From contig OZ038453.1 of the NCBI GenBank assembly GCA_964036195.1, positions 25,010,352 to 25,074,351 on the forward strand: a stretch of DNA of 64,000 bases, given 5' to 3'. This DNA is from Sphaerolaimus hirsutus (Eukaryota; Nematoda; Chromadorea; Monhysterida; Sphaerolaimidae). Below, one piece after another: positions 460-53,488 of this stretch. Both the position numbers and the translations under genes were made by a program. The notes beneath the pieces were generated by a model that did not search any database, had not been told where the DNA came from, and was given only the letters and a program-made list of their open reading frames with translations. Every line of letters begins with the position of its first letter. The first letter of the stretch is position 1.

Positions 460-764
460 TAGTGATGTAAAAAGCGCCAGGAGTTTGGCGCCAAGCCTCA
501 AAAGCACCATTGCGCTTTTCCGACCCCCGGCGCCAAGCGCCAATGGCGCCACAGCAAAACGGCGCTAAGCACCAGATGCGTCATGGCGCTTTTGCTTGGC
601 GCCAGCGCCAGACATTTTGTTCCTAGCGCCGGGTAAAAATAGCGGCAAGCGCTGATGGCGCCAAGCGCCATGTCGCTTTTTATGGGCATGGCGCCAGACG
701 CCAATGGCGCCACAGCAAGTAAGCGCCAAGCGCCAAAAGCGCCATGGTGTTTTTACATCACTAC
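460..764. mobile_element. hAT-like MITE, GGCGCC-word family (copy 1)
   Basis: The ends are inverted (TAGTGATGTAAAAAGC at left, its complement ending ..TTTTTACATCACTA at right). The interior is almost wholly GGCGC/GCGCC words such as AGCGCCATGGCGCT. The flanking octamers TAGGTAAC and CAGCTAAC agree at 6 of 8 bases, consistent with an old 8-bp target duplication. There is no coding capacity; apparent ORFs here are low-complexity. Confidence 0.75.
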
Positions 765-795
765 AGCTAACTAAGGTGAACAAATTACCCATATG

Positions 796-1042
796 CTCCA
801 GAGACTTTACACCTTGCACGTGTAGTTCACACTTGAAGCGTGCCAATGTCATTTACCTAATGCATGTGATTTTAATTAAAAAGGTTAAAAAATTGATTGG
901 TGCTATAAAGTTACAGATAAACATAATCACAACAATGAATTGTTTATGTTTTCACAAAATCGCATGATTTAATTATCATTGGCACACTTCCAACGTGCGA
1001 CACAAATCAGTGCAAGTGCAGAGTATCAGGTCCGCTGAGTAT
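796..1042. repeat. ~250-bp TATACTCC..GGAGTATA family, copy 1
   Basis: The left end reads ATGCTCCAGAGACTTTACACC then a 'cctTGCACG..GTGCCAA' block. The right end has TTGGCACACTTCCAAC..GCAGAGTATCAGG..GAGTATA. The same layout is seen at 3465-3716 and 8480-8732, with a left-end fragment at 2613-2680. The right halves are roughly inverted relative to the left. Superfamily not assigned; no clear target duplication seen. Confidence 0.6.
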
Positions 1043-1059
1043 ACCAACGTGCACAATTG

Positions 1060-1500
1060 AAAAAAATACCATACCATCCACAGTTGTTAAAATGTATATA
1101 CATTTTTTTCAAATCTACATATATGTGAGTACTAGGTAAATACATATACCTACATACATACTTTTTTAAAGTAACTGTACTGACAAGTACGCATACTTTT
1201 GTAAAGTACACGTGTACAGAAAATGTTTTACAGAAATTTCAAATCGCAATTTTTTGTTTCTAAAAAAAGAAATAGGTAATATCATTTTCATATAATGATT
1301 CTCAATACTCATGAAAATGACATCTGTTATGTCTCCCAGTGTAAAAATCACTCTCAGATGTAAAAAATTACCCATGAAAAAGTAGCTACTTTTACATAGT
1401 TTATTAAGAAAAGTACTCACTTTTACATTTTATGAATTTTCCTGGAGTAAAAAGTATTTTACTCACATGTACTCTTCCAGAGAAATCCATTGGGAAATAG
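1060..1500. repeat. AT-rich word-repeat tract (TACATATAC / AGTACTTTTAC)
   Basis: No gene is seen. The stretch is built from short words such as TACATATACCTACATACATAC and AAAAGTACTCACTTTTAC, like the other word-saturated elements, but I could not define its ends. Similar 'AGTTGTTAAAATGT..TTTAC' text occurs near 42570-42735. Confidence 0.4.
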
Positions 1501-1504
1501 TAAC

Positions 1505-2180
1505 CAGCTGCTAAAAAAAGTTCTTTTATAAATAGATAAGTCTTATTTTTCAGCTATTCCTTACTCCAGATGGGTTAGCCATTGCTGTTCAAGTTATTTT
1601 TTCTCTCCATACTTTACATCCAAAACTGATTGCCATCTTTACATGATATCTTGCAGTAAACATGCCATTTTATTTTCCATTTTATTTTCTAGTATTCTAT
1701 TTTCCAAAACACACACTGTTTATACCTTACCATATGTATGACAATGGCAAATGAAAATTTGGGAATTTGGGAACATTTTCAAATTTTCAATTTTTTATGG
1801 ATATTTTGAACTTTTATCTTTTTTATTCCATGAGTAGTGAATGCCCTGTTGATGTATTTTGAATTTAGGACTGTGTCATATTCACTGCTGATAAATAGAT
1901 GAAATAATCAGCTAAATTTTTTATATTCACACCTATGTAGTGGCGTTTGGCATGTAGACAATGGATCAAGAGTTTCCAAGGTTTTGACACTCGCGGCGGC
2001 TTGATAGATAGCAAATCCCTCCTCCCGAGAGACAAATCACTGAAAACTATTCTGGGGGCTCGTTGGAGCAAATGACTTACTCGTATGATATATACTGTAT
2101 TTCCTTGAAATACCCCCGGGCCCGGGCGGTTTCTTTTTCAGAGTGGAATTTTTGAGGGGGGTATTTCGAGGGGAGGAGGT
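1505..2180. other. Intronic spacer, unit 1
   Basis: No exon recognised. It holds a fragment at 1965-2030 related to the right part of the CTATCTATC-word element at 42010-42507. From about 2095 it also holds a CCTTGAAATACCCCC..GGGGGGTATTTCGAGG hairpin related to the TA-flanked family. Confidence 0.4.
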
Positions 2181-2181
2181 C

Positions 2182-2884: not shown

Positions 2885-4203
2885 TAACGATGGCAAACCC
2901 TCCAAAAAAAGTATTTAAATTTTTAAGTGTTTTTTCCGAAATGAACTTTCGAATTTTCGAATTTTTCCTGAAATGAATTTTTGAATTTCGAATTTAATTT
3001 TCGAATTTTCGAATCTTTTTTGGCAATTTTTGAATTTTTTCGGCTATTTTTCGAATTTTTTCAAAAAATTTTCGAATTTTTTTGTAAAAATATTGAATCT
3101 GAAGTTTTAAATGAACAATTTGGACTGTTTTGGAAGTGGGTATACTTGGCAGATGTGATACTCTACAAATAGATATGATTTATGTCTTCAACTGGCAGAC
3201 AGCCAACTGAAAACTTGTGAACTGACTCCCCACTCCACTCCACTTCATCCCAACTCTGAAGTCTGAACCGGTTCAGTAAGTTCACTGCCAACTGCGGTTA
3301 TGACGTCATGATGGAGTGTTACCTCCTGAAAAATGTACAGTGTAATGTTGCCTGAGTATAGCGCACTGAGCGTACTCAGTGCATACAGTGCTAACTTCAC
3401 AAGATACAGGTAAATACTTCTCAAACCACTCTTCTTTGATAATATCTTTGATCACATCTCTTTTATACTCCAGTAACATTACACCCTGCACGCGTGGTTC
3501 CCGCTGGAAGCGTGCCAAATTTTTTTTTTATGCATGTGATTTTTATAAAAAGTTGAAAGAATTCATCTCAGTTATAACGTGATACGTTAACTTATTCACA
3601 ACTAGATTTTTTCATATTTTATACAAAAATAGCAGGCTTGATGACTATTGGCACACTTCCAACATGAGACATAAATCAGTACGTTGGCAGAGTATCATGT
3701 TCACCAAAGTATACTTATAAATATGTGCAGTTCCTATGGGCCATCCCAGACACCTGTAAAATGCTCTGTGAAATGTAAAATGTTATGCAAAGTGTCTAGA
3801 GTCATGGAAATGCTGTGGAAAATTGCAAATATGTTAACCATTTTCCCGGGCATTTTCATAACTTTTGACACTTGCATGACATTCCACATTTTACAGGGCA
3901 TTTTACATTTCAACGTTTTTGGACATTTTTTTTTGTTTTGTTTCGCTTTTTCATACGCACCGCGTACCAATTGACAGTTTATTGAGCACGTTGAACTTAA
4001 GAGTTTGTTTTGTTGCCTTGAATTCCCTGAAAAATTCGAAAAGTATTTTCGAATTTTTGAATTTTCGAATTTTCGAATTTTTTGAAAAATAAATCGATTT
4101 TTAAGTGTTTTTTCTAGGGGTGAAATAAAAATTCGAAAATTATGAAAAAATTCAAAAATTCGAAAATGTTTTCGAATTTTCGAATCTTTTTTTGCCATCG
4201 TTA
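2885..4203. mobile_element. hAT-like MITE, CGAATTTT-word family (copy 1)
   Basis: Termini TAACGATGGCAAA .. TTTGCCATCGTTA. An exact 8-bp duplication, CATCTGGG, lies at 2877-2884 and 4204-4211. Both subterminal regions are runs of TTCGAATTTTCGAA and its inverse. The middle carries another ~250-bp repeat (3465-3716) and a further palindromic TGTAAAATG tract. A second copy lies at 10335-11020. No transposase is encoded. Confidence 0.88.
3465..3716. repeat. ~250-bp TATACTCC family, copy 2, nested
   Basis: TATACTCCAGTAACATTACACC at left and ..GGCAGAGTATCATG..AAGTATA at right, matching 796-1042 and 8480-8732. It sits inside the CGAATTTT element and so gives a third nesting level within 2713-4475. 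Confidence 0.65.
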
Positions 4204-5826: not shown

Positions 5827-8478
5827 TTACCTACTAATTAAATCTCTAATTATTTGCATTGTGTCGCAATCTAAGTTCATATTATATTTCCATAGTAAAC
5901 TTCTGTATCGTGTAGTGCACTTCAAGGCCACTTCAAATAGAATGTCATTTGAATATTCATTGTTTTTATGTCCTTCAATAATTGGTTTGATACTACATAC
6001 AAAGTTGTTCCAGCTTGAGCATAATCTTAGAGCTCTTAGCCAATGTCCAAAAAATGTACTCCTTTTGACACAAAGTGCCTGGGCACTTCTAAAGTTAGTT
6101 GCGGTGATGCATTTGAAGTTAAAGTCAAGTCTCTTATTGTATAATTTCCAGTTCAAATTTTTAAAGTCAATGGTCATATCAAGAAAGTCAGTAGAAGTTC
6201 CATCACGGTCTGTTCGATTAAGCGGAAGGTTACTTGGGTATATTTAACCTACTATTTGTTGAACATCAATGTCACTCCCTTTCTTGTAACATATCAATTA
6301 ATCATCTATATATCTGAAACATCTGAACATTTTTCTTTGTTTATCTCTGTTGTGCATTACCCATTCATTTCGCGCCACATAGGGCTGGTGCATGCAATAC
6401 TAGGTGCAGATGCACAACCCATAGGTAGGCCAGATGTTTGAATACTAAGTATGATTCTGAAAGTACAGTTTTAAGTAGGTTCATAACACCTTCCTTATCT
6501 AATGTCAGAAGTTTGTTGTGTATATTATCACTGTACCACAGATTTTGCCATCCAACAACAACATATTTTTTACCAGCATTACAAAAACATTTGTCAGCTA
6601 TTTTATGGATGCATCTTAAAATCTCTTTGTGGCACATATTTGGGTACAAGGTGGAAAAATCACCACTAAAACATCGAACTGAATCAGTGCCTTTGCCAGC
6701 ATCTTCCACAAATTCCTGAATTTCTATTGAACTTTCACATGGCCAGTAGCCACTGCATGCAGTTTCTGAAGCTTCTGAGAATGTTGAGCAGTAATTTTTC
6801 ATATGTGCCTTAAAATGTCGCAAAATGCGATGTAAGATAATGGCTGCTGGTTTAATTGGAGCTGTACTTCCCCCACTTATAAATCTAAATTTAACAGGGT
6901 TTTTGTGCATTTTAGGTATAGGGAAAAGTCTGGGTAGGCTTTGCCATTTAGTGTTAATTGGAATATCTAGATTTCTGAGCAAATTATTATGTTTATTGAT
7001 GATGTCATTTTCTAAATCTGATACTGGTGTGTAAGTTGCATTACCCCTGCAGTGCATGACATCATTATTCCAGAAAACACCCAGTTCAGCACACATTGCC
7101 TGAGCGGCAAATTTTTTGCATACAATAATCAGATTGCTCGTTGCTTTGTCAGCTGGTGCTATTAGATATTTATCATGTAGGTTCTGACAAACTTTTTTAA
7201 TGTAGTTAACGTCAATCAAATCAGGGAAGTTATCTGTCCAATTTTTGGTTCTCTTGGAAATAAAGTTATCCAGATCTTCAATAATGTCATTTGTAATTTG
7301 AATATTAAATTTAATACTTATTTTTTGAAGTAAATCTAAGATCATCTTTTTACACCCTGAAACGCTGTTATCCATTGTACATCTGTATTTGGCCCCTAGT
7401 TTCAAGGCATTTTCCAGATAACTGTCATTCAGAATGGCCAAGTTGCCAGTAACAACATGTTTATGGTGCAGATCCATAAAATGTGACTTTTCACATTCAC
7501 ATCTTTTTTCCAGTATCAATTTTAGATCCCCTTCAGTGATTGATTTGAATACCTTGTTGTGATTGCATAGTGTGTGTGAAAGGGGTTTATCATAAGTAAA
7601 ACAGACTATAATTTTATTCAATTTGAGCCAGTCATTTGCTATTTTATCACAAAATTTTTTGCTGTTGAGAAATTTAGCTGGTCTAATACAATCCATTGTA
7701 GCACCTGGAAATTTACATGTAAAGAAGTGTTTTTTACGCAAATCAATTGGTTGTTTTTTATTGAGGTCACCTTTACTGGTAAGAAATCCAAGTACAGCCA
7801 TGGCCATATCAGTAGAATTATCACAAAGTCGTCTATGTACATGTCCAATCATTCTTTGTAAATCAAGTATTTCTTGATATTTACATGTTCTCAAAAATTT
7901 TATAACTGAACCATAGTCAAAATTAGCAGAATTGAATGTCAAAATTTTATCACAAATTTCATCGGTCGACCATCTTTTGTGTTTACGTTTTTTGGTGCGG
8001 ATCCGATCACTATGATTTCTAGGAACAGGGCGACAAAAATAAGGACTGTTTGCAAACTTAGGCAATTTACCTTTTTTGATAGTGCCGTAACCAGGGATTT
8101 TTGTGTTCAAACCAAAAGGGTAGGCCGTATTTAATAAGAGTATCCATTCCTTTTCAGCACTTAGCAGACTAGCTTTGTCATAAATTCCCAGGATTTTAAA
8201 TTTAGGGTTATGTCCCGGTAGTGTGAAGTGTTTAACTAATTCTGTTTCCATTTTACCTTTTTTGAAGCTTCTAATGTGTTCACCAATGCGCAATTTAAAT
8301 TTTCTACATGTTTCTCCTACGTAATGTAGTTTGCAATCAGTACAGGTAATCAAATACACAACATTAGTAGAATTGCAGTTAGCGTGAGCATCTAGTTCTG
8401 AGCAGTATACGTATCCCATGCTACTTTCACTTGTATATATTTCAGTGTTAATGTACTGGCAATAGGTGCAGTTACCAC
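5827..8478 (-). pseudogene. Broken Penelope-like element with N-terminal GIY-YIG (Naiad/Chlamys type)
   Basis: Reverse transcriptase plus GIY-YIG nuclease of a retroelement. The minus-strand frame is open from at least 8470 (CGNCTYCQY zinc-ligand-like motif) through the ATG at 8419 to about 6400. GIY-YIG is first: NVVYLITCTDCKLHYVGET, with R and H of the RIGEH helix about 13 residues later and a Glu near KEWILLL. RT motifs follow: IAPADKATS, IPKMHKNPVKFRFISGG and FSGDFSTLYP (motif A Asp). The frame then shifts: GLPMGCASAP (motif B) is in another frame, and RYIDD (motif C) is followed at once by a stop. The C-terminal part (DFLDMTIDF onward) runs from 6177 to the stop at 5827. A CxxC between GIY and YIG and nuclease-before-RT order are traits of the permuted Penelope-like clade. 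It is not functional as read. Confidence 0.85.
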
Positions 8479-8479
8479 A

Positions 8480-8732
8480 TGTATACTCCGGTTACTTTAC
8501 ACCTTGCACGCGTGGTTCCCGCTCGAACTGTGCCAACGATGGTTAACGCGTCCGAGTTTCATAAAAAGACGACAAAATTGATTGTTGTTATAATGTTATT
8601 CATTAACATATTCACATCGATGAATTTTTACATATTTTTACGGAAATCGCATGATTTAATAATCATTGGCACGCTTCCAACACGAGATATAAATCAGTGC
8701 GAGGGCAGAGTATCACGTACGCGGAGTATACG
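8480..8732. repeat. ~250-bp TATACTCC family, copy 3
   Basis: TATACTCCGGTTACTTTACACC at left and GGCAGAGTATCACG..CGGAGTATA at right. It abuts the 5' end of the Penelope-like element. It is the best-preserved copy; its ends are inverted over about 9 bp. Confidence 0.65.
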
Positions 8733-10132: not shown

Positions 10133-10173
10133 GTACGTTTTTTGACATTTTTTACGTGTGTATTACTCAGGAA

Positions 10174-10329
10174 TAGTGACGGAAAAGCGCCATGGCGCTT
10201 TTGGCGCTTGGCGCCGCACCCATGAAAAGCGTCACTGCGCTTTTGGCGCTTGGCGCTAGCGCCAAAGAAAAAAGCACCATGGCACTTCTGGCGCTTGGCG
10301 CCAAAGTCATAGCGATTTTTCCATCACTA
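10174..10329. mobile_element. hAT-like MITE, GGCGCC-word family (copy 2)
   Basis: TAGTGACGGAAAAGC .. TTTTTCCATCACTA ends with a GGCGCC/AGCGCC interior. The left octamer CTCAGGAA (10166-10173) matches the right flank exactly once the later insertion at 10335-11020 and its duplication are removed. Confidence 0.85.
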
Positions 10330-10334
10330 CTCAG

Positions 10335-11020
10335 GCACGATGGCAAAAAAAGATTCGAAAACATTTTCGAATTTTCGAATTTTTTCATAATTTTCGAATT
10401 TTTATTTCACCCCTGGAAAAAACACTTAAAAATCGATTTATTTTTAAAAAATTCGAAAATTCAAAAATTCGAAAATAGTTTTCGAATTTTTCAGGGAATT
10501 CAAGGTGACAAAACGCAGTTTTAAGTTCAGAGTGCTAAATAAAGTGACAATTGCTATGCGGTGGGTCTGGAAATGTCTCATGCAATGAAATACCAAACAA
10601 TTAGAACCACGGCCCTCTACTTCCGCGGATACAGACTCCGGTCCATCAAAAAAATCTCTTGCGGGTTTTCCGAGGGGCAGTCACAATATGTTTTTGAAAG
10701 GCATTCAGCCCCAGCGAAAATAGTGAAAACTGATCCACATAAGTGTTTCTACCATTTGTCATGTTAAAGTGAAGTGAAATTAAGGTTAAAAGGGGCTCCA
10801 AACATGAAGACAGTCCAAATAATGTGTTTTTAGCTTCAAATTCAATATTTTTCTAAAAAAATTCGAAAATTCCCAAAAAAGATTTGAAAATTTGAAAATT
10901 CGAAAATTAAATTGAAAATTCAAACATTAATTTGGGAAAAAATTCAAAAATTCGAAAATTCACTTTAGAAAAAACACTTAAAAATTTAAATACTTTTTTC
11001 TGGAAGGTTTGCCATCGTTA
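10335..11020. mobile_element. hAT-like MITE, CGAATTTT-word family (copy 2)
   Basis: Ends GCACGATGGCAAAAAA .. TTTGCCATCGTTA, with AAAATTCGAAAATTC words throughout. An exact 8-bp duplication, CTACTCAG, lies at 10327-10334 and 11021-11028. It landed across the right border of the GGCGCC element. Confidence 0.85.
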
Positions 11021-11355
11021 CTACTCAGGAATCAGAAATTTATACTCAATGTAGAATAGGCATGTGTTTCACTGTGTTTTCTCAGTTGCCAGAGGTGTAA
11101 TTTCCAACTACACGTTTCCTATATATCCCAAATTGAATGGAAATGGAAATTGGCCATATTAGCTTAATGGGCAATTTATGCAATTTTCGACTTTTGGAAG
11201 TTTGCACCACAGATTTAAGTTTGCACTTTTCTTACTATTTTTCCCCACAAATAGAAATTACTGATATTTTGCTGGATACAACATGGAGATATGAACTTGC
11301 TGATGGATATTTTTCAAAAATTGTTCCTTATTGCACCAAATGTGTCAAGTGTGAC

Positions 11356-13479
11356 TAGCATTGAAAAAATCTCTGGGAGATTTTTAGTTAAAAAATCTCA
11401 GAAAATCTCAAAATATATAAGATTTTCTGAGACTTATATTTTTTCCCTGATTTTCGAGCGAGATTTAATTATTTTTTCTCCTGATTGAGAAAATCTCTCA
11501 AGAAAATCTCTCTATATTTTCCCATTTTCACCTTCAAATTCACTAGTTCATGTGCTTTTTTTACCAATTTTCATCAATTTTTGACTAAATATATATTTGC
11601 TTATATACCCATTTTTGGCTACTTTCCCCCTATTTGTAGTTTTTCCTGCCCTTTTTTCTGTTCTATGGCATGAAAGAGCCAATAAAAAAGTTATCTGAAA
11701 TACATTTCCTGTACTCAAGTACTTTCAAGAAGTATACAAAAGAGAGTACTGGTACTTTTTCTGAGGAAATTTAGATGTATTTACTTATTACTCAAGTATA
11801 TGTATTTTTGAGTAAACATAAATATGTTTTAACCCTTGAACCATACTGAACACCTGCAGTCCCATGAAGACCCAGTGCTCAAGTACGAGCTGTACCTAAG
11901 CACTGGATCCAGGGTTGGCAAAATCTCAGAAAAAAATAAAAATAAAATAAAAAAACAATGGAAAATTTAAGAATAAAATAAAATAAAATAAAATGGAAAA
12001 TTTAAGAATAAAAATTAAAATTGTATAAAAATTTGAATTTTTGTAGAATTTTTGTAAAATTGTATAAAAATTTGTATTTTTGTAAAATTGTATAAAAATT
12101 CATGTTTTTTTTTGTAAAATTTTATCTCATTGCTTGAGTTTCTACCTGTTTATTCATCGATCTGGGCGCAGTTCCAAGCTTTGTAAAGTGTCAAATGTCA
12201 TGTAAAATGACATGCAAAGTGTCAATCATCATGACAAATGTAAAGTAAAGTGTAAATTGTCATGGCATATAAAAATTAAACTATCAATTGTCAAGCAAAT
12301 TGTATCCAAATCTTATGTTTTGTATCCAAATTATGTTGTTGTTGAATCCAAATCTTATGTGAACATTTGGATACAAAAACATTAGATTTAAATACCAAAC
12401 ATACTATGGATACAAAAACAACATTTGGATACACAATTTTCAGTTTGCATGGCGATTGTAATGACAATTGCCACTTTGCTTGAAATTTGACATGACACTT
12501 GACGTTTTGCATGAGAATTGACACTTTACTTTACATTTGTCATGACAATTGACACTTTGCATGACATTTCACAAATGTGCCCAGTACACTCCAGTAGTCC
12601 TTCTACTGAAAATGCTCACCATTTTGCTCAATAATTGTAACTAAACACTTGCAGCCAGCTAACAATATGGGGTAAACAACCATTTTGAAAAGTAAGGGGT
12701 AAATTTGTCACGGTTTTTCATGTATAGGTCTAATTGTAACATTTTTCTGGTCTTGCATGCATGATTTCGATTTTTTTGTAAAATTTTTGTAAAATTTTTG
12801 TAAAATAGTGTCATTTTATTTTATTAATGACTTTTGAGAATAAAATAAAATAAAATAAAATGAAACAAGAATAAAATAAAAATAAAATAAATTTTTTATA
12901 CAATTTTACTAAAATGAATTTTTATAAAACCAACCCTGTCTGGATCTACGTTGGCACTGGATGTTGCTACTTGTGCAACAGGTAAACTTAGGTACTGGGT
13001 TCTAGTCATTTTAACAACTAAAGAGTTGACAGCATGCTTTGGTAATATAGTTACCAAATTTTGGTGAGAAAGTCATCTGATAAATTCTGTGGAGATCATC
13101 ACACATGAAAGTATTCTACTATGAGGAAAAATGTGCCTAAACCATATTTTTGTTCATTATTCAGATACTAAATACATGGCAGTACAAAGTATGCTGTCAG
13201 TAGACAATATGCTGTTATCATATGAAATTGTGAATGAAAAGGTTAAACAACACATACAATATCTACTCCAAATGGTTCAAACACGTTGAAATATGGATTT
13301 AATCATACTTTAAGTTGAGAGATTTTTTGAGATTTTTTGAACTGCAAGAGATTTTCTCAGAGATTTAATTATATTTTCAAAAAGGACCCAAAATATTTAA
13401 TTATATTTTTTTCTAGAGAGATTTTCTGAGATAATATTTAATTATATTTTTTCAAAATCAGTCGTTTTTTTCAATGCTA
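11356..13479. mobile_element. hAT-like MITE, GAGATTTT-word family, carrying a nested element
   Basis: Ends TAGCATTGAAAAAATCTC .. TTTTTTTCAATGCTA. An exact duplication, AGTGTGAC, lies at 11348-11355 and 13480-13487. The subterminal text is GAGATTTTCTGAGA-like on both sides. It is interrupted by the element at 11910-12938. A related right end with internal text lies at 63430-63690. Confidence 0.85.
11910..12938. mobile_element. hAT-like MITE, CAGGGTTGGCAAA / AATAAAAT family (copy 1)
   Basis: Ends CAGGGTTGGCAAAAT .. TTATAAAACCAACCCTG. The flanks ACTGGATC and TCTGGATC agree at 7 of 8 bases. The outer parts are AATAAAATAAAAT and TTTTTGTAAAATT words. The centre is a TCAAATGTCATG/CATGACATTTGA palindrome with TTGGATACAAAAAC words. 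Second copy at 36753-37754. Confidence 0.85.
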
Positions 13480-17606: not shown

Positions 17607-18054
17607 GACATAAAACACGTCTTTGTCACCCATTTAAAAGTGGGAGTTATTCGAGAGGAGGGGTTTCGAGGGGGGGGGGCTTTATAGAGGATATACGATA
17701 TTTCATGTTTTAAATGCTCTGAAATTGATTTGAAGTCTGTCAATTTGCTTCAGTTGTTTTGAATATGTGCATGTGCCCATGTTTCGGGACCAGCATGTTT
17801 ATATAGGAAAGTAAGCAGATGTTTAGCAGAAAATTATGCTATTTATTGACCATTACACCTTAATGAGAATAGACAGAAGCATATTTAAGGAACGTCCAAA
17901 AAGTCTAATTTGATATTTCAATAAAGATTTTTTAAATGTTCATTTTACAAAAAATGAAGTTAGCACTATGCACTTTGGTTCTATCGGTGTGGCTTTTCAT
18001 GCCGACACAGGCATGCTCATATTTTTCATGTGAGTGTGCATGTTAATATTAAAT

Positions 18055-18215
18055 AGTGATGTGAAAGCGCCATGGCGCTGGCGCCTGGCGCTAGCGCCAA
18101 AGCAAAAAGCGCCATGGCGCTTTTGGCGCTTGGCGCTACTTTCCAGTGGCGCCATTGGCGCTTGGCGCTACCATTTTTTAAAGCGCCAAAAAAGCGCCAG
18201 AGTGATAATTGCGCC
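18055..18215. mobile_element. hAT-like MITE, GGCGCC-word family (copy 3, right end lost)
   Basis: TAGTGATGTGAAAGCGCC left end and GGCGCTTGGCGCTA words. The expected right terminus is not present after 18205. Confidence 0.65.
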
Positions 18216-18280
18216 GCGGTGTTCATGTGCCTTATTGCCTATTTTCAGCAATTTTTGGCCATGTATGTAATTATTTTGCA

Positions 18281-18703
18281 TACCGTATTTCCTCGAAATA
18301 CCCTCGCCCCCTTGAAATACCCCCAGGTGTTTTCGAGCTGAGGAAAAAATACCCCCGACCCTCGAAATAACCCCCCCCCCCCCTCTGGAATAAGGTACAT
18401 CATGTATGCAAGGAACATGATGTATTTATTGCGACCATTTTGCATCGCAGTTATACGTATACGCTAGTTTGTGTAGCGATGTATGTTTACATCCCTGTAT
18501 GTCCCTACATACCCTATTTGGTCACGTTTATTACCGGTTTGGGGTATGTAAAAGCGTATTCTTTAGTATGAGATTCCCGAAAATTTCTGACGAAATAATA
18601 ACTCCCCCCCCTCGAATAAGCCCCCCCCCCTCGAAATGCCCCTCCTCAAAATTTCCACTCTGAAAAAATAAACCCCGTGGGGGTATTTCGAGGGAATACG
18701 GTA
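18281..18703. mobile_element. TA-flanked MITE, CCTCGAAATACCCCC family
   Basis: TACCGTATTTCCTCGAAATA .. GGTATTTCGAGGGAATACGG and TA on both sides. The internal text (ACCGGTTTGGGGTATG..) is shared with the copies near 4540 and 44040. Confidence 0.75.
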
Positions 18704-18751
18704 GGTATTTTACTCAGATATGTAATTTAGCTATTTTTACCCTGTTATCTC

Positions 18752-19455
18752 CAACGATGGAAAAAACACAGAAATTGAACACAGAAACTCATTGAGTTTC
18801 TGTGTTTTTGTTTTACACAGAAACACGGGAACTCACAAATTTTGAAAAACTCAAAACTCAAATGAGTTTTTTTTTGGAGAACACAGAAACACAGAAACAC
18901 AGAAAAGTTTGTTGAGTTTTTGAGTTTTTTCAGCGAAGTGGTTGAACACATTTTCAGAATGCACATGAATTCAGTTAAATTAAACAAGGTAAGATATGCA
19001 TGTATAGCATGTAAATATGTACATAATGTATTCATATTTTATGATGGAACAAAACATAAATTAAAGATGGCATGCACATCTCCTGGTGGACATGTTTAAA
19101 TATAGTTGTAGTTCAAATCAATTCTGTAGTCTTCCATACAGTGCACATCCATTGAAGAATTTTGGAAGTTAAAAGTTAAAACATGTGCAAAACCAATATT
19201 TTATAGGAAAACCACTGTTTCCACATCAAAATGCTGTAAATCAGAATTTTCGGGGGCGAAACTCGAGTTTTTTCAACAAAAACTTGGATTTTTTAGAAAA
19301 AAACTCAAAAAACTCGAGTTTTAACAAAAAACACAGAAATAAAAACAGAGTTACTCAAGTTTTTTTATTTATAAAAAAACTCAAAACACAGGTATTCATT
19401 TTTGAAAAACTCAAAACACAGAAAGTGTTTTTTTTGGAGAACTTACCCATCGTTG
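18752..19455. mobile_element. hAT-like MITE, AACACAGAAA-word family
   Basis: Ends CAACGATGGAAAAAACACAG .. CCATCGTTG with an exact 8-bp duplication, GTTATCTC, at 18744-18751 and 19456-19463. Both sides are packed with AACACAGAAACACAG and GAGTTTTTGAGTTTTT words. The middle is less repetitive. The terminal 9 bp resemble the CGAATTTT family (TAACGATGGCAAA). Confidence 0.85.
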
Positions 19456-19721
19456 GTTATCTCACAGTTTGCACTTTAAATCTTGAAAAATCCAATAGAT
19501 TGAAACACTGCAACCCCCAACCCCCAGACAATCTTTCAGCTTCTACCACTTCAGAGAGGCAATTTGCTGTCTATTCAAACCAGTCTTAGTTACACTTGTG
19601 TGTTGAGCAAGACAACTTATTGATTTCCATTATTTGACAATTGTGTTTTTGTAGGCAATACCAGTAATTGAAAGTGAAGAAAATAGTACTTTGTCTCACC
19701 TGTATCATTAAAGGCAATATC

Positions 19722-19933
19722 ATTTTGGCGCTGGCGCCATTGGCGCTTGGCGCCATGGCCCCGTGGCGCCTTTGGCGCTTGGCGCTAAGGTCTAGAAAAG
19801 CGCCATGGCGCTTTTGGCGCTTGGCGCCATTTTGCTGTGGCGCCATTGGCGCTTGGCGCCAGTTTCGGAAAAGCGCCATGGCGCTTTTGGCGCTTGGCGC
19901 CAAAAGTCTGGCGCTTTTTACATCACTAATACT
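19722..19933. mobile_element. hAT-like MITE, GGCGCC-word family (copy 4)
   Basis: Dense GGCGCTTGGCGCC words and a clean right end ..TTTTTACATCACTA at 19933-side. The left terminus is diverged or lost. Confidence 0.65.
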
Positions 19934-23536: not shown

Positions 23537-24345
23537 CAGAGTTCTTTAATACTGGTATTTTTGGAAAGTGTAAGTGTAAGCGTAAATACACTTTCCAAAT
23601 GTTTAGTATGGATACCAAAAGCATAAGGTATTTTTAAAATACCTAGGAAAGTGTAAAAAAGTGTAAGCGTAAATTTTTTTATAGAAAAAGCTATCACTGT
23701 TGAGCATTAAAGAACACCACTGTTTTCACCTTTAGGTCAATTTATTTATCATTTTCATGCATTATTTCACATTTTACTGCCATTGATGAAACAATTCTTG
23801 ACTGTAACAAATTTAGTGGTATAAAGTTGCCTGCTAATAATGGCATTTTTTCAGAGCTGATATTTTACTGATTTAACAATGTTTAATCAGTAAAATAGAT
23901 ACACACTGTTTAAATGCAAGAATGGACGTGCATCAAATGTCAATGCAAAAGCCAGTTGGCTTTGTGTCCAGCTGGTGAATTTTCATTGATCTTATTTTTT
24001 TTACAAAAGTATGATGAAACTGTAGAATACCATAAGTACTGATCAAAGGTTCGAGCTAGTGCACATTTGTACATTTGCCATATTTTCTACATTCAATGCA
24101 TAGCTGCATGTGTGCACTGTGCAGTGCAGTTATTTTTGTACATGACCCTGTTTTATGCTTTCTCGAATGCTTAAAACAGGGGGCGATCTGAAAGTTAAAA
24201 ATGCACTTTCTGTATCAAGTTATTTTGCCCAGGAAAGCATAAAAAAAGTGTATGGATATTTTATGAGAGTGTAAGCGTAAGCGTAAATATAAATACTTAT
24301 TTACCCAGGTTTTTGGGTAAGCATAAATACACTTTTGCAACTCTG
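23537..24345. mobile_element. hAT-like MITE, GTAAGCGTAAAT-word family
   Basis: Left CAGAGTTCTTTAATACTGG and right ..TTTTGCAACTCTG. The flanks CTATTTAC and CTGTTTAC agree at 7 of 8 bases. GTAAGTGTAAGCGTAAATAC words lie at both ends. The right border is only 17 nt upstream of the unit 2 exon at 24363, so it supplies most of that intron's 3' end. Confidence 0.8.
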
Positions 24346-30631: not shown

Positions 30632-30823
30632 GGTAAAAGTGGGTTTGTTTGGGTTGTTGACCGTTTTGCAATGGTCTTGTGTGATATTTGTTTTTTATGA
30701 ATGTATATTCTCGGTGCTGTGGTCAAGGTGCATGTAAGTGTATCTGTGGTCAGTCAGATATGTTGTTTGAAATTCAATTATGTTTGAAGCATGAACAGTC
30801 AATTTCTTTCTGGAGATATTAAT

Positions 30824-31055
30824 TAGTGATATATTTAGATGTGCTATGGTGCTAGCACCAAAGCAAAAAGCGCCATGGCGCCAAAGCTTTTGTCACTTGG
30901 CACTATCTTTGCCCGCCGCCAGGATAAAACTGCCTGGCGCTGGCGCTTGGCGCTAGTGCCAACACATAAAGCGCCATGGCGCTTCTGAGGACCAGAAAAC
31001 CGGCATGGCACTTTTGGCATTTGGCGTCAGAGTCCTGGCGCTTTTTACATCAGTA
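30824..31055. mobile_element. hAT-like MITE, GGCGCC-word family (copy 5)
   Basis: TAGTGATATATTTAGATG .. CTTTTTACATCAGTA with an exact 8-bp duplication, ATATTAAT, at 30816-30823 and 31056-31063. The interior is AGCGCCATGGCGC words, more eroded than in other copies. Confidence 0.85.
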
Positions 31056-32460: not shown

Positions 32461-32568
32461 CACATGCAACTATTGAAATATGTGTATTTGCCCCACACTT
32501 GATTCGGGACTTTCAACAACTCTGCCTCGTTGTCGCTGGGAACAAAAATGTTCTCGCGTGCAAGAAGT

Positions 32569-33459
32569 AGTGATGTAAAAGGCACCGGGAAAAATGGCAC
32601 CGCACCGCACCGGCACCTTTGCCAACGCATGAAAAGGGCACCTGGCACCCTGGGGCACCGGCCAGAAAATGGCACCGCACCGCACCGGCACCGGCGGGTG
32701 CTAGCACCGAAAGGCACCGCACCGGGCTGGAATTTCTGAAGTAAATATCGGGCAGTTTCTCAGTGGTGTCACCTTTGGAAGTGCATATTTCCATGAATTT
32801 TCAACCGATTTTGATGGTTGAGCACTTAAAATGATCAGTATGATGTGGCAATCACTTTTATGCACCAATTACGATGATTACAAATGAAAGATAAAATATT
32901 TAATTCACTACTACAATGTCCATAGCCACTATTGTCTACTGATCGGAGTCGTTGCTGTACAGAGAATGGAACTATCTCTGTCATAAACTGACAACAAATT
33001 TTGAACAAAAAAGTAAGATAAATATAAAATATAAAAATGATTAAAAACTCAACAAAATTTTAGATTCGCTCATCAGATCACGTATCGGGTATAATGGATT
33101 TCACAGTAGGTATATTTATTTGATGGGAGGTTTACAAAATAGGCAAAAACGGTTGGGTAAATATATCGCTGTTTTTTGAAATATGTATAAGCGCATAATA
33201 TGGACAAAATTGCACAGCACATGAAGCCTTGGCCGGTGCCCTTCCCGATGCCTTTTACTTTTGCCCTGGTGCTAGCACCTTTGGCACCGGCAAAAAAATG
33301 GCACCGCACCGCACCAGCACCGGTGCTATTCTGAAAAAAATGGCACTGGCACCGGCATGGCACCCCTGAAGATTGCAATGACACCGCACTAGCACCGGTG
33401 TTGGTGCCCTTCGGTGCCCAGCACCGGGGCACCGGTGCCCCGGTGCCTTTACATCACTA
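32569..33459. mobile_element. hAT-like MITE, GGCACC/GGTGCC-word family (copy 1)
   Basis: TAGTGATGTAAAAGGCACC .. GGTGCCTTTACATCACTA with an exact 8-bp duplication, GCAAGAAG, at 32561-32568 and 33460-33467. Both flanks are runs of GGCACCGCACCGCACCGGCA and its complement. The middle (32730-33230) is AT-rich. The uninterrupted target occurs at 20803-20818 in inverse orientation. Confidence 0.9.
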
Positions 33460-36752: not shown

Positions 36753-37754
36753 CAGGGTTGGCAAAATTTCAGGAAAAAAAGTGAAATAAAATAAAATGGA
36801 AAATTTCAAAATAAAAATAAAAATTGTATAAAAATTCAAATTTTTGTAAAAATTTTGTAAAATTGTATACAAATTCATATTTTTGTAAAAATTGTATAAA
36901 AATTCATATTTTTTGTAAAAATTTTTTTGTTTGTTTATAGTTCAACCTGTTCATTTGCGGAGCTGGGGCAGTCCCAAGCCATGTAAAGTGTCAAAATGTC
37001 ATATGCAATGACATGGAAAGTGTCAATTTTCATGAAAATGTTAAGTAAAGTGTCAATTGTCATGACAAATATAAATTAAAGTGGAAACTGTAAAGCAAAT
37101 TGTATCCAAATCTTATCTTTTGTATCCTAATCTTGTTGTTTTTGTAACCACATCTTATGTGAACATTTGGTACCAAAACATAAGATTTAGATACCAAAAT
37201 ATAAGGTTTGGATACCAAAACATAAGATTCAGATACACAATTGACCTTACTCTGCACGACATTTGTCATGACAATTATACTTTGCTTGACATTTGAGATG
37301 CCAATTGACCTTACTACATTTGTCATGACAATTGACACTTTGCATGATGTTTTACAAATGGACCCAGCGTTTGTAATCCAGTAATCCAGTAATCACTCCA
37401 GTAATCCTTCTACTGAAAATGCAAACCAATCTTATCGATAATTGTAACTTAACACTTGCAATGCAACTAGCTAACAATAACTACTGCATGCAACTTTTGT
37501 AAAGTAATGGAAAACTTTGTCACACGTTTTTCATGTTTAGGTCTAATTATCACATTTTTCTGACCTTGCATGCAAGATTATGATTTTTTGTAAAATTTCT
37601 GTAAAATTTTTGTAAAATGGTCCATTTTATAATTTAATTTATATTTTGGTTTAAAATAAAATAAAATGAAACAAGAATAAAATTAAAATAAAATACATTT
37701 TTATACAATTTTTATACAATCTGTATACAAATGATTTTTATAAAACCAACCCTG
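36753..37754. mobile_element. hAT-like MITE, CAGGGTTGGCAAA / AATAAAAT family (copy 2)
   Basis: CAGGGTTGGCAAAATTTC .. TTATAAAACCAACCCTG. The flanks CTCGGGGG and CTCATGGG agree at 6 of 8 bases. Same order of inner words as 11910-12938, including the central TTGGATACCAAAACATAAG part. Confidence 0.8.
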
Positions 37755-42009: not shown

Positions 42010-42507
42010 CAGGGGTCTCCTAGGGGGGGGGGGCTGGGGGGGGGTTGCCCCCCCCCCCCAAATCCGCCAGCTATCTATCTATCCCGGAGGCCGCTCAGCT
42101 ATCTATCTATCCCGAGGCAAATTTTTTGGCTACTACCTCCAAAGACTCCCCCCAAATCGCTCAGCTATCTATCTATCTGGAGTGGTTTTTGAGAAATTCT
42201 GCCCCAATTTTCGCTCAAAATCGCCAATTTTCGCACCTTTTTATAGTTTTTCACCTTCAAAATTGTGCTCTCCGGCTATGGATAGTTATATGCCTGTTTT
42301 TAGCCATTTTAAACCTACTTTTGACCACTTTTAACCGATTATTAGCGATTTTTTCCCCTTTTGGCCTTCTATGCACTGAAAAAGCCTATATATTTTGCCC
42401 CCGCCAGCCCCCCCACCCTAGAAAAATTTTTCAGCTATCTATCCCTCCGGAGGAGCGATTTGCTTTCTATCCAGCCCCCGCGAAGGCCAAAATCTTGGAG
42501 ACCCCTG
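42010..42507. mobile_element. hAT-like MITE, CTATCTATCTATCC-word family
   Basis: CAGGGGTCTCCTAGG .. CTTGGAGACCCCTG with an exact 8-bp duplication, CAAGATAA, at 42002-42009 and 42508-42515. The word AGCTATCTATCTATCCCGGA is repeated at least three times on the left, and AGCTATCTATCCCTCCGGAG on the right. Fragments of the same family lie near 1965-2030 and 9860. Confidence 0.87.
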
Positions 42508-43278: not shown

Positions 43279-43515
43279 TAGGGTTCAAACGGGACTGCGG
43301 TCCCGGTACATGGTTCGGCAAAAAGTCGGGACTGGGGCGGTCCCGGTCCCGGTCCCGACACCCCAGTCCCGGTCCCGGTCCCGACAATTGAAAAAAGCCA
43401 GTCCCGGTCCCGGTCCCGGTCCGGACCACCCAGTCCCGGTCCCGGTCCCGGTCCCGACATTAGAAAATTTCTGGTCCCGGTCCCGGTCCGAAAAACTGGT
43501 CCCGTTTGAACCCTA
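43279..43515. mobile_element. hAT-like MITE, GGTCCC-word family
   Basis: TAGGGTTCAAACGGGAC .. GTCCCGTTTGAACCCTA with an exact 8-bp duplication, AATGTACA, at 43271-43278 and 43516-43523. The interior is runs of GGTCCCGGTCCCGGTCCCG with a few GGGAC inverses. Only 237 bp, very GC-rich. Confidence 0.9.
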
Positions 43516-46169: not shown

Positions 46170-46380
46170 GTGAGTTAAAGGGGGTGGGATTTGTTGGGTT
46201 CAATTAACCTAGACACACTAGTTGACATGGATGCCGAATGTCAACTGGTTCCCATCCCAATTGAAAGCTTGCTGACCAGCCGACGAACGACTTTCAAATG
46301 CAAAAGTGTTGAATCGTGTTGCAAATGAAGCTGTAGTGTAGAAAATATTGCGCTATGTAAATATATCTGTATACAATAAT

Positions 46381-48278
46381 TAGGGTCGGCCAATGTTTTT
46401 TTAAAAACGTTTTTTTAAACATGACGTCCGAAATGTTTATTAAAAAAAAACATCGGCCGAAATTTTTAGTACTAAGCACTAGGTATTTTGCAAAATTTTT
46501 GCGCGCAAGCGCGCAATTTCACACACAAATTGACATTGGTGGTTGTTTTCATTGGTTTTGTGGCATTTTTAGTATCAAAGTATCCATTTCTATGTGCTAC
46601 CATGGGTTAATAAGCCGACATATGTTGCTGTAGTATATAATATTGAGGTAATGTGCTTCCATGTACCTCCACAGTGTGTAACTTCACCCCCAAAGTAACA
46701 ACATCATTTTATAACCTTGTTTGATCACTATTCCGTGCCAAACTTTCCCTAAAGTCACAAACATTTGACTATAAGGCGATATACAAATGATATGTCAACG
46801 AAAAATGGATATTTTTGACACAAATCACCACTTATAATGCTATCCCATGGCTCCACAGACATTATATGATCATATACACTACCGTGCAGAATAGTTAAGA
46901 CTTTGCGCTGCGTGATTAATGTTGCCAGAATTTCGAAATGGTCGATATGCAAAACATTTGGATACTATACATGGGTACCCTGGGGGGTTGACTACACATG
47001 CCCGGGATGACCGCCCCTCAAGTTCAAGTCTGCATATATTCCTAGTGTACAAACATTTTAACTCAGTTTGTTCATGTTTCAGAATAGTTGAGACTTTTCT
47101 TGTTTTGGGCAGTAGCCACCCAGTATCTCACTTTAAAGTCTATATCCAATTCCTATGTTCATTTTTTAACAAAATTTTCACCATTGCAACTGCTTGCCTG
47201 CATTGCTGAGCTCTGTGTGCAGCAAGACACATTCTAAGCATGAACAGCATATGGCAATGCATATATAGAAATGTGGTGTTTATTCATTTTTGCTGCATTT
47301 TTGCATCCATTGCCAGCAACTCAGAAATGGGGTTAGGCATACTACTGACTGGGGCTATTTGGTGTGTAAATTTGAGGTTTTGGCTTTGCTTTATTAGGGA
47401 GAAAAGTTGGCCCAACTGTGAATGAGTAATGTGCAATTATTTTGGATGGAATGAAGATGGAAGTTTGTAAGTGCTATAACTTTTGATTGGAAAGAGATAT
47501 TGAAAAAACGTTTTTGTCATATTAAGTCTCTCTGTTTAAAGTATGTTATAGACTGTTCAATAACAAAATTTTCATGCTGCAAACCCCAGTAAAATAAGCA
47601 TAAAATATTTAGACACCATTGAAAAATTTGAAGTGCCATAACTTTTGATCGGAAAGACATATTGAACTCATTTTTGTTTTAAATGAATCCTCGTTGTCTA
47701 AAGTATATGATAGCATGTTCAAAAAAATTGTTTTGTCATGTTCAAAAACTGGGTCAAATTGGCATACGGAATTTAGACATCCCTAAACCGACCACAAAAA
47801 TAGAATCTGCAGGTTGTCCTGATCATTTCAAGCATTGAATGATTCAAATCAGCCCAGAAATGGTTGAGTTATTAAGCTTCAAATACACTCATCCCGATTG
47901 CCCATTTTTTCTATATTTATTGAACATCTTTTTATAGACCCCCCTTATCTCGGGCCTGGGGGATTATTTGAGCAAACAAAAAATTTACATAGTAGCCCCA
48001 GCATCAAACCCCAAAATACTCAAACGGCATCAAAATTGGACAAGGGACAAGAAATTGGGAAGCAAAAAAAGTGTGGTGGACCCCCAGCCTACTGTATCTC
48101 TGTGTGAAAAGTCTCAACTATTCTGCACGGTAGTGTATAACATCACAGAGTATTGCCACTGTCTGATATACCTATATATGTTGACACAAGGTCATATCTG
48201 GAAGCTTTTAGAAAAAACAACGTTTTTAAAATAAAAAAACGTTTTTTATTAAAAAAAAACGTTTTTTTTCCAACCCTA
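46381..48278. mobile_element. hAT-like MITE, AACGTTTTTTT-word family, carrying Tc1-like MITE
   Basis: TAGGGTCGGCC.. and ..TCCAACCCTA with an exact 8-bp duplication, ACAATAAT, at 46373-46380 and 48279-48286. AAACGTTTTTTTAAA words lie at both ends. It is interrupted by 46875-48137. Confidence 0.87.
46875..48137. mobile_element. Tc1/mariner-like MITE, CACTACCGTGCAG family (copy 3)
   Basis: TA CACTACCGTGCAGAATAG .. CTATTCTGCACGGTAGTG TA. It is the innermost of three nested elements and the longest copy of this family (about 1.26 kb). It has no transposase motifs. Confidence 0.85.
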
Positions 48279-51270: not shown

Positions 51271-51273
51271 ATG

Positions 51274-51716
51274 TCACTCATCCATAAAATTTACAAATAA
51301 ATTTAGATCACACATCATTTCATATTGCAACAATTTTCCACAGGATCGCATGTCCAGTTCAGCAGCTCCATTAATTTCTGCATAGGAGTGAGAGATGTTG
51401 GGTACATCACTGCAAAATTTCAGACTTCTAGCCCCATCACAGCTGGAGTCAAGGAAGTGACTGCCGGACTTGGCTGGAACACAGTTTACTAACGGGCAGT
51501 TTTGCTCATCTTCCCCATCAATACAATCTCTGAACTCATTACATACACCACCCAATGGGATATTGCCAGGGCAATACTCCTGGGGGAATTCATCTCCGTG
51601 TGCAACTAGGTAGTCAGCCATGTCCTGTCCGACACCACTTGTGCAAGTGAATGCTGTGTCTCCATCATCACATTCAGCTGTGGTTGTAGTTGTGCTTGGT
51701 GCTTCCATTGTGGTCG
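51274..51716 (-). CDS. LDL-receptor class A-like exon with Thr-rich lead (inverted paralogue)
   Basis: Reading minus: acceptor ACACATTGCAG at 51717, then TTMEAPSTTTTTAECDDGDT, AFTCTSGVGQDMADYLVAHG, ..EYCPGNIPLGGVCNEFRD, CIDGEDEQNC and the second Cys-rich stretch to FVNFMDE, TGA. LDLa residues are intact, including DCIDGEDE. Open sequence continues upstream of the AG without an ATG start, so a hydrophobic run there (SIAISLALFVAIYM) is more likely intron than signal peptide. Neighbours on this strand are unknown; a PAN exon lies 9 kb upstream at 60676. Confidence 0.7.
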
Positions 51717-51859
51717 CTGCAATGTGTATTGTTTTGTCGCAATTTGGAACCATGTAAATTGCCACAAAAAGAGCCAATGAAATTGCAATCGAAATCAAAA
51801 AGAGTCAATTGCCTTGAAAAGAGTCAATAACAAACTGGTAGGCATTTCTGTTTATTGGT

Positions 51860-52690
51860 TCTGTTTTATTTTACACCCCATCCACACTGACACGATAATG
51901 ACCTTTAACCCCATCTAACCGCACATCACACCTGCGCAAGGGGGGGAGGGGCGCGCGGCGACGCCAGCACCCCCTCCCCCGAAATCGGGCGCACACACAC
52001 GCGCGAAATGCACTCAAAGCACGCGGGGGAGCGGCGGGGGGAGACGGGGGAGGCATATCGGGGTGAATTCAACACCCCGAAATACGCGCCGCGGGGGTGC
52101 CTTTGAGGCGTCAAAATGGAAAAATTGAAAGGGGGTATGCGCACCCCCTCCATATATTTGGGGCTTTAATTGGTTTGGGGGAGGGAAATATTGAATTGGG
52201 GAGGGGGGGGGCATCTTTTTCCAATGTTTCAGTGCGAGATGTTTCAGGCGGTGTGTGATTTTTGATGGCTCATTCTTTTGAACTGAATAATTTTTTTAAA
52301 ATAATTTAGAGTTAATAAAACATTCATATAAAGACAATTTATATGACGCACGTACATTTTTCAGTTGGAAATTATGGAAATGTATACGCGAGATCTAAAG
52401 TAAACCGGCATAAATTCATTAAACGTCCACCATTAAACCATTAACACTACAATATAACAAAATGCAGCACACACAAACCGCAACCACACAAATCATAAGC
52501 CGCCACGAATGGGGGAACAGCGGGGGGGGGGCTGTTTCAAAAGATGTCGCGCGTCACAAACTTGCCACCAAAGTCACATTTGCCGCGCGGCAAAAGGCTG
52601 CACAGCGCCGCGGCAGCAGAAACGAAGGCTGGAACACGACTGCAGCTGCAGCTAAATGGGGGGCGGCTGCGGCAGGGAACCAAATTTGAT
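51860..52690. other. GC-rich non-coding patches
   Basis: 51930-52215 is dominated by GGGGGAGGGG and GCGCGC text, and 52520-52690 by CCGCGCGGC/GCAGCGG. Composition differs strongly from neighbours. No exon or paired ends were recognised. Confidence 0.35.
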
Positions 52691-52812
52691 TGCCCCCACC
52701 CATTATTTGACTACTTCGGTGCAACCTCGTTTACCTACCAAACAATGTAAATATCAACCTACATTAGTTCCATACTTCCATAAACCATTTTTCCATAACA
52801 TGAAACGTTTTC

Positions 52813-53488
52813 TACTTAGTCTGACTGAAAAGTCCCCGGGCAGTGCTCGCCATTAGTGATGGAAAAAGCACCGGGAAGTATGGCACCGCACCGCACCGGC
52901 ACCGGTGCCATTCCTCAGAAAGGGCACCTGGCACCATGGGCACCGGCCAAAAAATGGCACCGGCACCGGCATGGCACCCTCGCAAAATGGCACCGCACCG
53001 CACCAACCAGCACCGGTGCTGGTGCCCTTCGGTGCCCAGCACCGGGGCACTGGTGCGCCGGTGCCTTTCCATCACTACTCGCCATTTGCTCTAGGGGTGA
53101 GCTACGGTCATAAAATTTTGACACGTTAAGATATCAGGTGTTTTGAGTTTTCACCTTAAGTTTCCAAATTACTCTCTTTCAGCAAATCATGCGTTTGCTG
53201 GTAGTGTTGAATACTATCAGCACATTGCCAACACACTGGCTTACACTAGCCAAAGTTTCATGATCACAACTTAAAGCAGCGTTGAGCTAGAGCACCATTT
53301 GTACATCAGTACAAAATGACCGAAATTGTAACCCTCACAGTTCCCCAGTGGGTTGAGCTAGAGGGGTGAAATTTTGGGTGAAAACTCAAAACACCTGATA
53401 TCTTAACCTGTCAAAATTTGATGACCGTAGCTTACCCCTAGCGCGAATGGCGAGCACTGCCCCGGGACTTTTCAGCCGGACTAAGTAC
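52813..53488. mobile_element. Foldback element with ACTTAGTC ends, one arm interrupted
   Basis: The left arm ..CTGAAAAGTCCCCGGGCAGT.. and TAGGGGTGAGCTACGGTCAT.. is mirrored by ATGACCGTAGCTTACCCCTA and CTGCCCCGGGACTTTTCAG. The left arm contains the GGCACC MITE; the right arm does not. Confidence 0.8.
52854..53077. mobile_element. hAT-like MITE, GGCACC/GGTGCC-word family (copy 2)
   Basis: TAGTGATGGAAAAAGCACC .. GGTGCCTTTCCATCACTA with an exact 8-bp duplication, CTCGCCAT, at 52846-52853 and 53078-53085. The interior is GGCACCGCACCGGCACC words only. Confidence 0.9.

Follow-up and report, generated by a model that had tools for sequence, protein, structure and literature searches.

Subterminal word arrays in hAT-like elements of the nematode Sphaerolaimus hirsutus and different words behind a shared tip

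Introduction

Transposases of the hAT superfamily bind short repeated motifs in the subterminal regions of their elements. Here we describe hAT-like elements in a 64-kb stretch of DNA from the nematode Sphaerolaimus hirsutus (GenBank assembly GCA_964036195.1, contig OZ038453.1, positions 25,010,352 to 25,074,351; hereafter "the window"), whose ends carry dense arrays of a short word. The window is part of a 30-Mb sequence in an assembly of 348 Mb, and all results come from this one genome; L-numbers denote loci sampled outside the window, and C1 and C626 are contigs of the same genome. The elements bear on the open question of how transposases change their DNA specificity and yet keep their own ends.

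The comparisons with published systems that follow refer to excerpts of the cited papers. In maize, the terminal ∼200 bp of Ac contain AAACGG repeats to which the Ac transposase binds, and Ds derivatives retain the tips and some of the hexamers (PMC3260210). The S. hirsutus elements resemble Ac/Ds in their apparent superfamily, their 8-bp duplications and their hexamers in the terminal ∼200 bp, AAACGG itself being frequent in the arms of one family, the CGGAAA elements. Unlike in Ac/Ds, however, the arms are far denser, one genome holds many word types, and a single tip occurs with three different words. In the housefly element Hermes, several BED domains contact subterminal repeats to find the end while the core reads the terminal inverted repeat (TIR) (PMC10368747). 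One S. hirsutus transposase has a C-terminus that matches Hermes, but the short AAGT/AAGC sites of Hermes are sparser and asymmetric between its ends, whereas the nematode arrays are dense at both. Yellan and co-workers found that the hAT-derived BED/Hermes domains they measured prefer CGG, GCGC or AT-rich motifs and that, for four hAT proteins, matches to the preferred motif lie in their own subterminal regions (PMC8097297). That work on CGGBPs and hAT-19 transposases measured proteins; saturated arms and word replacement behind a constant tip, as seen here, do not figure in the excerpt of that paper.

Three further systems are more distant. The hATm termini are TAGGGTG...CACCCTA (PMC6004678), and termini of this type were found in 10 complete CGGAAA elements, one of which has TAGGGCG at one end; the likeness is one of termini alone, the elements are not assigned to hATm, and the excerpt on hATm does not mention word arrays. 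Kat1 of Kluyveromyces, a domesticated hAT, carries six copies of a hexamer between its TIRs (PMC4763223); unlike this single locus with few repeats, the nematode arrays are dense and occur in many copies of mobile elements. In the piggyBac-related CMITEs of corals, the TIR and the interior differ in evolutionary rate (PMC2872659), but these belong to another superfamily and have a conserved interior region rather than arrays of short words.

The arrays are a known kind of feature, because subterminal repeats of hAT elements have already been described. Among the matches listed in our literature search, judged by title and the start of the abstract and with subscription journals largely outside its scope, we found no word-filled hAT miniature inverted-repeat transposable elements (MITEs) and no word replacement under a constant tip. 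Nor, apparently, do those matches describe arms of such density, so many words within one genome, or concerted replacement of words behind a constant tip.

Results and Discussion

Window elements carry one word in their arms

After correction of their ends, 16 elements with inverted ends and 8-bp duplications were found in the window (Table 1), covering ∼12.3 kb of the 64 kb with nested elements counted inside their hosts. The target-site duplications (TSDs) are exact in 11 of the 16, differ by one base in three (11910-12938, 18054-19928 and 23537-24345) and by two bases in two (460-763 and 36753-37754). A strict scan, for which a 10-bp TIR, an 8-bp TSD without mismatch, and A and G at positions 2 and 5, respectively, were required, returned 6 window elements versus 0 in each of 10 Markov shuffles. 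A looser scan returned 10 matches versus 0 to 1 per shuffle; eight of these belong to the 16 elements, and the other two (12236-12538 and 46405-48244) were left out. Because the scans required the 8-bp duplication, the TSD counts are partly a matter of construction. Elements of 139 to 357 bp with TIR and TSD, together with tips in high copy number, identify the short members as MITEs.

The outer 200 bp of each side (the entire element if shorter than 450 bp) were then compared with 300 exact dinucleotide-preserving shuffles. In 14 of the 16 elements the top 6-mer of the arms exceeded all 300 shuffles. The exceptions were 46381-48278, a borderline case (2 of 300 shuffles equally high), and 36753-37754 (150 of 300), where the word AATAAAAT itself nevertheless exceeded the shuffles (6 copies versus a maximum of 4). 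An initial annotation of this DNA had named a word for each family, and that word exceeded all shuffles in 14 of 16 elements as well, the exceptions being two GGCGCC elements, 10174-10329 (2 of 300) and 30824-31055 (66 of 300), in which GCGCCA still stood above all shuffles. The words AATAAAAT, AACGTTTTTT, GTAAGCGTAAAT and CTATCTATC had appeared to be at chance level with guessed boundaries. Most exceeded the shuffles once the ends were located, and AATAAAAT at 36753 and AACGTTTTTT stayed weak by the 6-mer test.

In the ten window elements longer than 680 bp the word lies in the arms, with no copy in the middle of eight and one copy in the middle of two. Since the word is confined to the arms, and the arms meet in short elements, a word-filled interior is true of short elements only; a word that fills the whole element is ruled out for the long ones by these counts. 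The inverted ends and words described in the initial annotation are real, and all eight octamers that it named flank their elements on both sides, but its picture of interiors dominated by the word holds for the short elements alone. Its nine insertions with exact duplications became 11 of 16 with corrected ends, and several of its elements proved much longer (for example, the GAGATTTT element at 11356-13479 and the AACGTTTTTT element at 46381-48278); the GGCGCC element at 18054-19928 was absent from its list.

Transposase-bearing elements also have word-rich arms

The hAT C-terminal dimerisation domain, PF05699, gave 28 matches in the genome at an E value of 0.001. Both ends were found for 17 of these, 15 complete within 3-kb loci and two more within longer stretches, with exact TSDs in 15 and one mismatch in two. 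The 8-bp duplications and the presence of PF05699 inside 17 word-bearing elements are those of the hAT superfamily and agree with the hAT-like identity first proposed. When the top 6-mer of the ends (outer ∼230 bp) was tested against the maximum of 200 Markov shuffles, it was higher in 17 of 17, with 0 to 2 copies in the middle. Thus, words in the subterminal ∼200 bp of transposase-bearing partners, the check suggested by the initial annotation, are present in every element with both ends found. In L029, for example, the arms (436 bp) hold 36 copies of CGGAAA and the middle (666 bp) holds one; L046 has 20 word copies in its arms and two in its middle; and L045 has 11 in its arms (shuffle maximum 8) and none in 5,546 bp of middle. 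The layout of the transposase-bearing elements is therefore short inverted tips, an arm of ∼200 bp on each side rich in one word of 5 to 8 bp, and a nearly word-free middle with a hAT gene or its remnant, while the short MITEs are mostly arm.

PF05699 lies inside elements of five word types, and a fragment found by similarity at L063 adds a sixth, so that the word types tied to hAT C-terminal pieces are CGGAAA, TTCGAA, CGATAT, a CGTAC-type (L045), TCGGGT (L046) and AACACAG (L063). The L063 locus is a relative of the AACACAG element of the window, with a hAT C-terminal fragment (E 1.7e-8) and with ends and a duplication, CAATTGAT, that were read from the sequence. Five transposase-bearing elements carry TTCGAA/CGAATTTT. 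Among the words of the window, transposase-bearing partners were thus found for TTCGAA/CGAATTTT and AACACAG; GGTCCC is tied to a transposase via its tip only, which is common to CGATAT elements. Inside the window, a decayed remnant of the C-terminal part of a TTCGAA-type gene lies at ∼3361-3463 within 2885-4203 (a weak tblastn match, E 0.007, with 78.5% DNA identity to L022 by blastn).

L045 (3744-9749; 6,006 bp; TSD CCTTGGCG) looks like an intron-bearing hAT gene. Its C-terminus matches Hermes structures (E 7.8e-13), and a BED finger scores over the Pfam cut-off (E 1.2e-5) after two inferred exons are joined; RNase-H-like exons are visible by eye, with no Pfam match obtained for them. A DUF659 profile search gave no match anywhere, controls included.

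Two TTCGAA-type hAT fragments with equal scores lie ∼3.8 kb apart on a small contig (L024 and L025; C626:2703-2936 and C626:6536-6769) and are possibly a duplication or an assembly repeat.

Different words occur behind one tip

The 12-bp tip TAGGGTTCAAAC occurs 16,617 times in the genome versus 37 times for a reversed control. The next five bases are GGGAT in 8,581 copies, GATAT in 3,241 and GGGAC in 2,549, a total of 14,371, with the other 2,246 unclassified. Fetched examples of the three kinds have a common tip and skeleton, and their arms carry CGGGAT, CGATAT or CGGGAC, words that differ from one another by one to three bases. We examined the first 100 TAGGGTTCAAAC places on C1, at one chromosome end, and set pairs by orientation and distance only. 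This gave 29 inward-facing pairs less than 1.5 kb apart. The word agrees in all 24 pairs in which both tips were classified (0 of 100,000 permutations did as well); in the remaining five one tip is unclassified, and no pair combines two words.

A second tip behaves alike. TAGTGATGKAAAA has 16,033 copies versus 55 for its control and carries GGCGCC in four window elements and GGCACC in two; both words stand behind TAGTGATG. Conversely, CGATAT is also found behind the tip TAGGGTTGGGAC in L067 and L069, and in L068 with one base of that tip changed. The transposase fragments beside these three CGATAT arrays are 60 to 67% identical to the TAGGGTTCAAAC/CGATAT type; L070, a fourth transposase relative fetched along with them, has no recognisable ends.

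Each element as a whole therefore has its word, which both ends share in the pairs examined, and subfamilies with a common tip and skeleton can differ in it. The idea of one private word per TIR is rejected, since TAGGGTTCAAAC occurs with three words and CGATAT stands behind two TIRs.

Word orientation and spacing

CGGAAA has the identical orientation on both arms in nine of nine CGGAAA elements; the arms are thus direct and not inverted repeats, though the tips are inverted. The arms of L046 are likewise direct and those of L019 mostly so (11:3 and 12:3), L045 is mixed, and in five TTCGAA elements the words are oriented in one arm only. Repeat distances of ∼40 to 42 bp recur in the arrays, as do 58, 67, 74 and others, so helical phasing is a hint only. 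In a 675-bp CGGAAA element (L047 8787-9461), in which no transposase match was found at E 0.01, an array whose units recur at about 40 bp runs inward.

Words as putative transposase sites

We consider it probable that the elements are hAT DNA transposons and their deletion derivatives, the MITEs, and that the words are subterminal sites for the BED fingers of the transposases. On what is our best reading of the sequences, word and tip would evolve as separate modules. The N-terminal BED finger would bind the word, which would be repeated so that a multimeric transposase grips the end by many contacts, and the catalytic core would read the tip. A change of finger specificity in one lineage could then be followed by concerted replacement of the word with the tip kept, giving rise to a new MITE lineage. 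Tandem duplication of units of about 40 bp may enlarge the arrays, and the gene could be lost, leaving a word-filled MITE, through recombination or slippage between the arms, whose words run in the same direction in several families.

The words belong to the motif classes of the CGGBPs and hAT-19 transposases (PMC8097297, excerpt): CGG (CGGAAA, CGGGAC, CGGGAT and TCGGGT), GCGC (GGCGCC) and AT-rich (AATAAAAT and GAGATTTT). CGATA and TATCGATA, in turn, are bound by the BED proteins BEAF-32B and DREF. The fit to published motifs was made after the fact. Divergence from consensus was lower at word sites than in arm spacers for CGGAAA (9 copies; 108/1,870 versus 295/2,439) and GGCGCC (7 copies, 5 of them fetched by similarity; 33/963 versus 64/910). 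In a leave-one-out analysis the CGGAAA words diverged by 6.0% versus 10.8% for other repeated 6-mers. For TTCGAA (6 copies) the non-CpG sites do differ (4/602 versus 59/1,938). Because the sites are non-independent and a consensus-based definition favours words, this constraint gives weak support, and in two of three families.

Several findings, besides the retrospective nature of the motif fit, weigh against transposase binding as the role of the words. Across all sites TTCGAA words and spacers show no difference (25/806 versus 78/2,105), and the leave-one-out comparison goes in the wrong direction (4.4% for words versus 2.8%). A BED finger was recovered in a single element, L045, whose arrays are the sparsest of the 17. 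No ends were found for 11 of the 28 PF05699 matches; judged by sequence, several of these belong to the same families. No PF05699 match lies in an open frame longer than 148 aa, and therefore no intact single-exon source was seen. Finally, no transposase was found for the GGCGCC, GGCACC, CGGGAT, CGGGAC, CTATCTATC, GAGATTTT, AATAAAAT and AACGTTTTTT elements, so that a change of word was not seen alongside a change of finger; for the GTAAGCGTAAAT elements and the TAGTGATG tip a transposase was likewise not found.

A two-part address code is a more tentative proposal, which we regard as possible and rather doubtful. Under such a code, the catalytic core would recognise a tip that changes slowly and the BED finger would recognise the word array; the word would have been rewritten in concert several times under a constant tip, each rewrite splitting off a MITE lineage of thousands of copies. 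If true, such rewriting would be a molecular analogue of speciation by recognition change, one that hits most of the tens of sites in each element.

Because there are six transposase-tied word types and three words behind an identical tip, with thousands of copies each, the match of finger and word is directly testable by binding. Read as transposase sites, the word arrays would explain MITEs otherwise filed as low-complexity oddities, the word could join the tip as a criterion for assigning orphan MITEs to transposases, and word replacement behind a constant tip would offer natural evidence of how such enzymes shift from one target to another.

Alternative explanations

An arms race among MITEs, in line with the sequestration idea of the initial annotation, would select excess words because copies that carry them recruit a larger share of a limiting transposase or draw it away from competitors; it appears unlikely as the explanation of the arrays and is an addition to transposase binding more than an alternative to it. 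The elements have tens of words each versus about three hexamers reported as needed in the Ac excerpt (PMC3260210), and one tip has ∼16,600 copies, whereas the C-terminus of one transposase gave at least 150 scored matches among 478 candidates; the transposase-bearing elements, however, have arms that are as dense, and the density is therefore not a trait of MITEs alone.

Neutral tandem expansion, by which the words would be micro- or minisatellite-like sequences that arose by slippage, became trapped in the ends of MITEs and play no part in binding, is in our view quite unlikely. A tandem repeat finder calls many arrays, higher-order units near 40 to 42 bp recur, and the TTCGAA words lack an overall excess of conservation. 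Against this, slippage would have to account for arrays in the two arms, but not the middle, of all 17 transposase-bearing elements, for the agreement of all 24 classified tip pairs, for the non-word spacers that lie between recurring words and for the different words behind one conserved tip and skeleton. Simple microsatellites, the outcome that the initial annotation had named as fatal to its idea, are not supported, being inconsistent with the arm-only placement and the agreement of both tips.

Highly improbable, finally, is that the words are sites of host BED or other zinc-finger proteins acting in the recruitment, silencing or transcription of the elements. In flies, CGATA and TATCGATA are indeed sites of the host BED proteins BEAF-32B and DREF (PMC5021357 and PMC5913717, in excerpt), and seven zf-BED exons are clustered on C1 at 7.47-7.68 Mb. 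However, such a variety of words, each linked to one type of transposase, is easier to reconcile with many transposases than with a few host factors, and the symmetric position beside both tips fits recognition of the ends.

The clustered zf-BED matches (L037-L039 and L041-L044) are seven of the eight given by a genome-wide zf-BED search and lie within 0.2 Mb (C1:7466186-7680097); they are possibly host genes from domesticated hAT DNA-binding domains.

Inventory of the window and neighbouring observations

Table 1. Coordinates, ends and word counts of the 16 window elements (shuffle maxima in parentheses)
Element	Coordinates	TIR	TSD	Word copies and remarks
GGCGCC-word MITE	460..763	TAGTGATGTAAAAA (14 bp, perfect)	off by 2 bases	GCGCCA ×21 (7)
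TTCGAA/CGAATTTT element	2885..4203	TAACGATGGCAAA	CATCTGGG, exact	12 in arms, 0 in middle
GGCGCC MITE	10174..10329		CTCAGGAA at 10166 and 11024	right TSD split by next element
TTCGAA/CGAATTTT element	10335..11020	left tip decayed	CTACTCAG at 10327 and 11021	9 in arms, 0 in middle
GAGATTTT element	11356..13479	TAGCATTGAAAAAA	AGTGTGAC at 11348 and 13480	AATCTC ×12 (7)
AATAAAAT element nested in GAGATTTT element	11910..12938	CAGGGTTGG	ACTGGATC/TCTGGATC	
Long GGCGCC element	18054..19928	TAGTGATGTRAAA	ATATTAAA/ATACTAAA	GCGCCA ×40 (10)
AACACAG element nested in long GGCGCC element	18752..19455	CAACGATGG	GTTATCTC, exact	
GTAAGCGTAAAT element	23537..24345	CAGAGTT	CTATTTAC/CTGTTTAC	
GGCGCC MITE, decayed	30824..31055		ATATTAAT, exact	GCGCCA ×9 (5); GGCGCC itself ×1 only
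GGCACC element	32568..33459	TAGTGATGTAAA	GCAAGAAG, exact	GGCACC 18 in arms, 1 in middle
AATAAAAT element	36753..37754	CAGGGTTGG	2 mismatches	
CTATCTATC element	42010..42507	CAGGGGTCTCC	CAAGATAA, exact	word ×7 (1)
CGGGAC/GGTCCC MITE	43279..43515	TAGGGTTCAAAC	AATGTACA, exact	sister words behind same tip
AACGTTTTTT element	46381..48278	TAGGGTYGG	ACAATAAT at 46373 and 48279	
GGCACC MITE	52854..53077	TAGTGATGGAAA	CTCGCCAT, exact	GGCACC ×13 (4)

Several of the window elements have close relatives or informative insertions. A near-identical copy of the MITE at 460-763, L002, has the exact duplication CAGCTAAC. The element at 10335-11020, which resembles L022, is inserted at the end of the GGCGCC MITE 10174-10329 and divides the duplication of that MITE. 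A relative of the AACGTTTTTT element lies at L005 2334-3027, and a complete AATAAAAT-type element is also found at L048 6883-7922. Two random 10-kb stretches gave 5 scan matches, too few to estimate density. The matches at L047 are the CGGAAA element described above and an outer element around a GGCGCC element, and those at L048 are two with the tip CAGGGTTGG, one of them an AATAAAAT element. The outer element (L047 791-3071) has a long inverted end, CATAGCTGAAATCGAGGGTA, and the duplication CTCGGCAG, and surrounds a GGCGCC element of 899 bp.

Tandem arrays with a 31-bp unit and words such as GTAAAGTGTCAAA occupy 53804-55785 of the window, and similar words occur inside the AATAAAAT elements. 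On the minus strand, 6365-8491 and 27716-30694 hold open frames of 708 and 992 aa with a GIY-YIG domain, which resemble Penelope-like retroelements. Poly-C tracts recur beside CTCGAAATA-like units at many places in the window (for example, 2738, 17346, 31412, 43153 and 59107).

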